In this document: piece by piece, positions 14,574 through 15,579 of the stretch
Layout: the number at the start of each line of letters is the position of its first letter
How positions within the stretch are numbered: the stretch's first letter is position 1
Assembly: GCA_013823055.1 (NCBI GenBank)
Contig: PNLN01000075.1
Coordinates: 1 to 38,757, forward strand
From: Cyanobacteria bacterium DS2.3.42
Lineage (GTDB): Bacteria > Cyanobacteriota > Vampirovibrionia > Obscuribacterales > Obscuribacteraceae
Length of the DNA stretch: 38,757 nt
Reading direction: 5' to 3'
Notes under the pieces: model-generated
Told to the model about the DNA's origin: nothing
Database searches by the model: none
The model's input: the letters and a program-made list of their open reading frames with translations, nothing else
Translations under genes and position numbers: made by a program

Positions 14574-14749
14574 AGGCATCAAGCGAATGCTCGCCTTTGA
14601 ATGGCAATAGGGAGCCTCTATACTCCAGTATGCATGATCCATTGTGAAAACGAGGTTAATACTTGGACCTGCGGCACTTCTTGCCTCCGGAGCATTTGAC
14701 GGCTTGGAGGTTCCTTTGCGGCATGAACAGGGGTTTCCCCTCGAATGTA

Positions 14750-14778
14750 TTGACATGTTGTAAATACGTGTCTACACT
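14750..14778 (+). promoter_or_regulatory. Sigma70-type promoter with internal palindrome TGTA-N3-ACGT-N3-TACA (14759..14776)
   Basis: TTGACA (14750-14755), 17-nt spacer, TACACT (14773-14778). The spacer and -10 contain TGTAAATACGTGTCTACA. Confidence 0.7.
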
Positions 14779-14800
14779 GTCTTTGAGGGAGGAAACGACA

Positions 14801-15115
14801 ATTCCGACAGATAAACGCTCAATTACTTTCTATGCCGACCCAGAAATTGAAGCCTGGTACGAGTCTCTGCCTACAAGTGTGCGATCTCGTACTATAAATG
14901 AGCTGTTGAAGAAGGCCATTGCTGCTCCCGATGAGAAACTCATCGTGTCCGAGAAAATCGACAAGCACGATTCCCTTCTGCGTGAATTGATCTCACTGGT
15001 CACCATTCTCACTCAAGAACAGATCGTTGCCTGTGAGCAAAAGTCCAAGAGTCCTCAAGCTAAGGCACTGAAAAAGCGGCTTAAGACCGCACTCAGTGGA
15101 TTAGAGCAAACCTAG
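14801..15115 (+). CDS. Ribbon-helix-helix-like DNA-binding protein, proposed ATT start
   Basis: DKRSITFYADPEIEAWYESLPTSVRSRTINELLKKAI resembles a RHH N-terminus. SD GGGAGG (14788-14793) lies ~7-8 nt before ATT at 14801. The ATG used by the ORF track (14663) lies upstream of the predicted promoter. Confidence 0.6.
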   Translation: MPTDKRSITFYADPEIEAWYESLPTSVRSRTINELLKKAIAAPDEKLIVSEKIDKHDSLLRELISLVTILTQEQIVACEQKSKSPQAKALKKRLKTALSGLEQT

Positions 15116-15129
15116 ATTGGAAGAGCAAT

Positions 15130-15579
15130 CTGAAAGCGCTTCTTGTCAGTCTTGCACTGGTAGTCTCTGTGCATGATGGTGATACGCTGAAGTTAGCAGA
15201 TGGACGCACAGTTCGACTGCAAGGAATTGATGCGCCGGAAATTTCACAACCCTACGGCATTGAGTCCCGCAATCTTTTAGTTAAGTTGACTCGAAAGAAG
15301 AAGATCCGCATAGCTTCTCATGGCAAAGACCGATACGGGAGAACTGTCGGCGAGATTTTCGTGGGAAAACGATCTGTCAATCATTCAATGGTTAGCAGCG
15401 GTGCAGCATGGTGGTTTCGGTCGTTTGCGCCGACAGACAACCAGCTTCGCCGTCTGGAAGGCGATGCTCGAAAGCGGAAAATGGGGCTGTGGCACGCGTC
15501 GAATGTGGTGGCTCCATGGGACTGGAGAAAAACTAAAGACAGACGTGCGCGAATCGCTGGAGCCCTGCACTCTAATTGA
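15130..15579 (+). CDS. Staphylococcal-nuclease-fold (thermonuclease-like) protein, proposed CTG start
   Basis: VVSVHDGDTLKLADGRTVRLQGIDAPEISQPYGIESRN...KDRYGRTVGEIFVGKRSVNHSMVSSGAAWWF...ARKRKMGLW, with SNase active-site motifs. The listed GTG (15169) falls inside the first strand. The frame is open upstream to CTG at 15130 after GGAAGAG. Confidence 0.85.
   Translation: MKALLVSLALVVSVHDGDTLKLADGRTVRLQGIDAPEISQPYGIESRNLLVKLTRKKKIRIASHGKDRYGRTVGEIFVGKRSVNHSMVSSGAAWWFRSFAPTDNQLRRLEGDARKRKMGLWHASNVVAPWDWRKTKDRRARIAGALHSN

Follow-up and report, generated by a model that had tools for sequence, protein, structure and literature searches.

A conserved AUU start appears to open an RHH-like regulator gene in a regulator-nuclease operon of uncultured Obscuribacterales

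Few conserved bacterial translation starts other than AUG, GUG, and UUG have been documented, and those already known in regulators include infC, ccpN, cvfC1, and sigR. In staphylococci, cvfC1 starts at AUU and ccpN at AUA; both starts are conserved, lie behind strong Shine-Dalgarno (SD) sequences, and give about 10% of the AUG yield in poor medium (PMC13009471). ccpN encodes a transcriptional repressor, and cvfC1 is the first gene of its operon (PMC13009471). In Streptomyces, stoichiometry is set by the noncanonical GTC start of sigR, which stands first in a regulator operon, and this start is repressed by IF3, as is the ATT start of infC (PMC5472188).

The Obscuribacterales regulator described here adds to this rare class. 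It resembles infC (encoding IF3; AUU or AUC) in its AUU initiation codon on a dosage-critical gene (PMC5472188). However, its product is a transcription-type regulator, and the apparent start of infC in the same genome is a TTG preceded by AAGGAG (L105, position 1441) rather than an AUU, so that an E. coli-like IF3 autocontrol is not evident here. With ccpN and cvfC1 it shares a conserved noncanonical start that follows a strong SD, located in a repressor or first operon gene (PMC13009471), although the proteins and the phylum are unrelated and the regulator is linked here to a nuclease. The SD itself also differs, being a GGAGG with an 8-nt spacer in contrast to the extended, start-proximal SDs of ccpN and cvfC1. 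The parallel with sigR lies in a regulator operon whose leading gene has a noncanonical start, with stoichiometry under IF3 repression (PMC5472188); there, the partners are a sigma factor and its anti-sigma factor, whereas here they would be a repressor and a nuclease.

The window, i.e., the whole stretch of DNA that was analyzed (38,757 nucleotides), is contig C5 of an Obscuribacterales (Melainabacteria) MAG of 4.18 Mb that is 64% complete and divided over 271 contigs. On its plus strand, the promoter TTGACA-17-TACACT (14750 to 14778) is followed by the gene of an RHH-like regulator of 104 amino acids (14801 to 15115), running from an ATT (14801 to 14803) to a TAG stop (15113 to 15115), and, after a spacing of 14 nt, by the gene of an SNase-fold nuclease of 149 amino acids (15130 to 15579) with a likely CTG start. 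The identical arrangement of regulator and then nuclease, behind the same promoter, is present in three further species of the genus (L028, L029, and L030), and the closest relatives of the MAG, as judged by the nuclease, are Candidatus Melainabacteria/Obscuribacterales MAGs. Both flanks of the operon are occupied by opposite-strand genes: a small gene and a copper amine oxidase to the left and an unnamed 152-amino-acid gene and a Tad/VWA protein to the right. Since amine oxidase, SDR, or RsgA genes stay close by at four loci, the two-gene operon looks vertically inherited within one Obscuribacterales genus. A mobile or viral origin was considered and dropped in view of these retained neighbors and of searches among viral contigs and plasmids, neither of which yielded a relative. 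The copper amine oxidase (PF01179; 11877 to 14126, minus strand) also adjoins the operon in L030, as judged by position and sequence similarity.

The promoter recognized in the initial annotation is present, and its −35 and −10 elements with their 17-nt spacing are kept at the equivalent position in five other loci of the genus (L028, L029, L030, L031, and L032) as well as in front of a stand-alone SNase paralog on contig C248 of the window's genome. Promoter-like sites in the window, taken alone, are not above chance (2 found versus 1.8 expected in shuffles). Downstream, the SD GGGAGG (14787 to 14792, plus strand) includes a GGAGG at 14788 to 14792, which is separated from the ATT by exactly 8 nt in 4/4 regulator-bearing species, confirming the earlier reading of an SD followed by an in-frame ATT. 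An anti-SD, CACCTCCTT, is present at the 3′ terminus of this genome's 16S rRNA, whose gene ends in GGATCACCTCCTT, so that the SD is usable.

An imperfect palindrome, TGTAAATACGTGTCTACA (TGTA-N3-ACGT-N3-TACA; 14759 to 14776), lies between the −35 and −10 elements, overlapping the latter, and pairs at 7/9 positions. It represents a putative operator, of which TGT-N2-ATACGTAT-N2-ACA is the clade form. Similar 18-mers occur about 1.8 times per kb in the window, and the significance of the palindrome therefore comes from its conservation. The core ATACGTAT is matched at 7 to 8 of 8 positions, with pairing at 6 to 7 of 9, in all five promoters of regulator-bearing genomes (the four operons and the C248 paralog). 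In two sister species, the regulator survives only as remnants with internal deletions (L031) or is missing (L032); their promoters match the core at 4/8 positions and pair at 4/9, and the −35 and −10 elements persist. No other regulator copy was found in these two genomes (84% and 82% complete). With two losses versus five retentions, this co-decay provides the strongest indication that the regulator may bind the palindrome. It also favors the earlier suggestion of an autorepressor site in the spacer and −10 region, as the site is retained with the regulator and eroded where no intact regulator is left. Together, the conservation of the ATT across saturated synonymous divergence and the losses of regulator and operator that occurred naturally in sister species allow the link between repressor and operator to be tested cleanly on evolutionary grounds. 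A genome scan of the window's MAG for a wider regulon gave only two operator sites, both 5′ of SNase genes, which suggests that the C248 paralog, with the same operator and no adjoining regulator gene, may be controlled in trans.

In all four species that keep the gene, the regulator appears to start at AUU and not at AUG, ATT being the only start consistent among them. Standard gene callers would place this start wrongly or miss the gene. Initiation at another codon, be it an upstream TTG or GTG, a leaderless start, or frameshifting, with the ATT as an internal or 5′-untranslated codon, is unlikely. The reading frame in the window is indeed open 5′ of the ATT, with a TTG at 14663 and another at 14783 to 14785, at the predicted transcript start and 5′ of the SD, and L029 carries an in-frame GTG three codons upstream. 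However, the latter TTG is not conserved, the GTG overlaps the SD of L029, an in-frame TGA precedes the ATT by two codons in L030, and in L028 the stretch from promoter to ATT is free of ATG, GTG, and TTG. In addition, the upstream frame shows no conservation at the protein level, and distant homologs from other genera start at ATG or GTG, with Met1 in the alignment column of the ATT for three of them (L097, L099, and L100). These comparisons support the noncanonical initiation put forward in the initial annotation. The case for the ATT start, built on four species, is best read as a combination of these lines and not as one of codon identity by itself: codons are identical in all four species at 10 of the 58 comparable invariant degenerate residues, making ATT identity alone a weak argument. 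Along with the internal deletion of its regulator, L031 shows decay of both GGAGG and ATT. Hardly any credence can be given to the view that the operon is ordinary and that the CTG of the nuclease, and the ATT as well, are ATG codons miscalled through assembly or base errors. Such errors would fit the incomplete, fragmented MAG data and a CTG that is one base from ATG and seen in one assembly only; the ATT, however, recurs in four independent assemblies produced by different projects, so that a base error cannot explain it and could account for the CTG alone. On this comparison, the ATT start is a clade property, whereas the CTG start is specific to one MAG.

The nuclease matches PF00565 (E = 8.3e-23; 81.3 bits versus a cutoff of 21), and its catalytic Arg/Glu/Arg and Ca-binding Asp positions align with those of Staphylococcus thermonuclease. 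It shares fold and catalytic positions with this family and differs from it by the lack of an evident signal peptide, the CTG start, and the operon with a regulator. In the nuclease model (pLDDT 90), residues 6 to 16 form beta-1, the first strand of the barrel, and match strand 1 of Staphylococcus nuclease in the alignment. A start at the listed GTG (15169) would delete this strand, as had been noticed before, and CTG 15130 is the likely start, its column holding ATG in five genes (the paralog, in L005, and L029, L030, L031, and L032) and GTG in L028. The proposed position is therefore upheld by aligned starts and beta-1; the noncanonical codon is limited to a single MAG assembly. The enzyme would be intracellular, with a presumed nuclease activity. 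A locally controlled nuclease secreted via a signal peptide is very unlikely, secretion having also been raised in the initial annotation: the protein begins with MK and a hydrophobic run (LLVSLALVVSV), but this segment before HDGDT is modeled with confidence as beta-1, has its counterpart in the aligned Staphylococcus strand, and, if cleaved after SLA, would give a signal peptide of only 9 residues, too short for a typical one. Highly improbable as well is a toxin-antitoxin pair, with the nuclease as toxin and the RHH-like protein as antitoxin and autorepressor. A small RHH-type gene followed by a nuclease gene, an autorepressor-like site, and the AbiEi, HipA-like, and helicase genes on the contig of the C248 paralog would all suit such a module. 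Nevertheless, obligate pairing fails: the nuclease is still intact in L031 and L032, where an intact regulator is lacking, no regulator gene adjoins the C248 paralog, and SNases are common as stand-alone genes in the family. PADLOC gave no toxin-antitoxin match. Antitoxins are usually needed in excess, and a low-yield antitoxin start would run opposite to this. The idea of a toxin/antitoxin-like module was consequently abandoned. A literature search on SNase plus RHH operons found nothing relevant.

The regulator itself is probably a ribbon-helix-helix protein, a label that the initial annotation had derived from the sequence. Similar to autorepressors of the CopG/Arc/ParR type, it displays the motif order strand-helix-[S/T]R-helix and a palindromic site inside its own promoter; unlike them, it has a distinct FYAD motif and no significant family match. 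Searches against Pfam, NCBIfam, PHROGs, and PDB models gave no significant RHH match. The best PDB profile match, 2q2k, which we take to be plasmid ParR, an RHH protein, is not significant (E = 0.022) and serves as a lead only. AlphaFold gave a poor model (pLDDT 61) that lacks an N-terminal strand, and Foldseek found no fold match with this low-confidence model. Four genomes, all of a single genus, encode an intact regulator, and weak relatives turn up in other parts of the family. The dN of the intact genes, 0.08 to 0.27, versus a dS of about 1 or saturated in most pairs, points to purifying selection.

From the compared start positions, the conserved promoter, the conservation of the operator, and its co-loss with the regulator, we infer with reasonably good confidence an AUU-throttled autorepressor operon, in which the regulator would limit its own synthesis and control the SNase-fold nuclease and, probably, the paralog in trans. 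Binding of the regulator to the palindrome between −35 and −10 would repress its own promoter, and the AUU start behind a strong GGAGG may allow little repressor to be made per transcript. The repressor level would then depend on initiation fidelity (IF3). In the window's MAG, the nuclease would also start weakly, at CTG, possibly aided by reinitiation of ribosomes that finish the regulator 14 nt upstream. Through the shared operator, the repressor would probably control the stand-alone C248 nuclease too. A weak start on the autorepressor is predicted to raise both the set-point of the operon and the nuclease/repressor ratio. The suppressed regulator dosage suggested earlier fits the noncanonical ATT start in four species, from which a low yield is presumed. 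This makes the operon a candidate case of autoregulation limited by a start codon, in a phylum that has hardly been studied experimentally. Considerably more doubtful is the extension that AUU is a selected set-point of an IF3-sensitive autorepressor; translation stress would then lower the repressor and, via the shared operator, raise both intracellular nucleases, that of the conserved operon and that of a defense-like cluster.

At L005 (505 to 7263, G000:C248), the SNase paralog, whose promoter is at G000:C248:6752-6780, follows AbiEi_3, HipA-like, HIRAN, and RNase_H/AAA_11-12 helicase genes, which together form this defense-like cluster. One further distinct site came from a genus-wide operator scan, namely the 29-mer TCTACATAGTGGATATACGTATGTACTTT, identical in three genomes (G004, G006, and G007; L108, 1501 to 1529, L109, and L111), which was left uncounted because two of these are without the regulator. 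The stretch around it is conserved and has no long open frame in any of the six frames. Among the distant regulator homologs, GGTAC-type repeats are present in the promoter region just before the ATG in L100 (about 1430 to 1500) and L104 (about 1420 to 1480), which suggests that autoregulation may be general in the regulator's family. A regulator-like FYAD N terminus is also found fused to a Clp N-terminal-like domain in a GTG-started protein (L102, 1483 to 2355, G003:C609).
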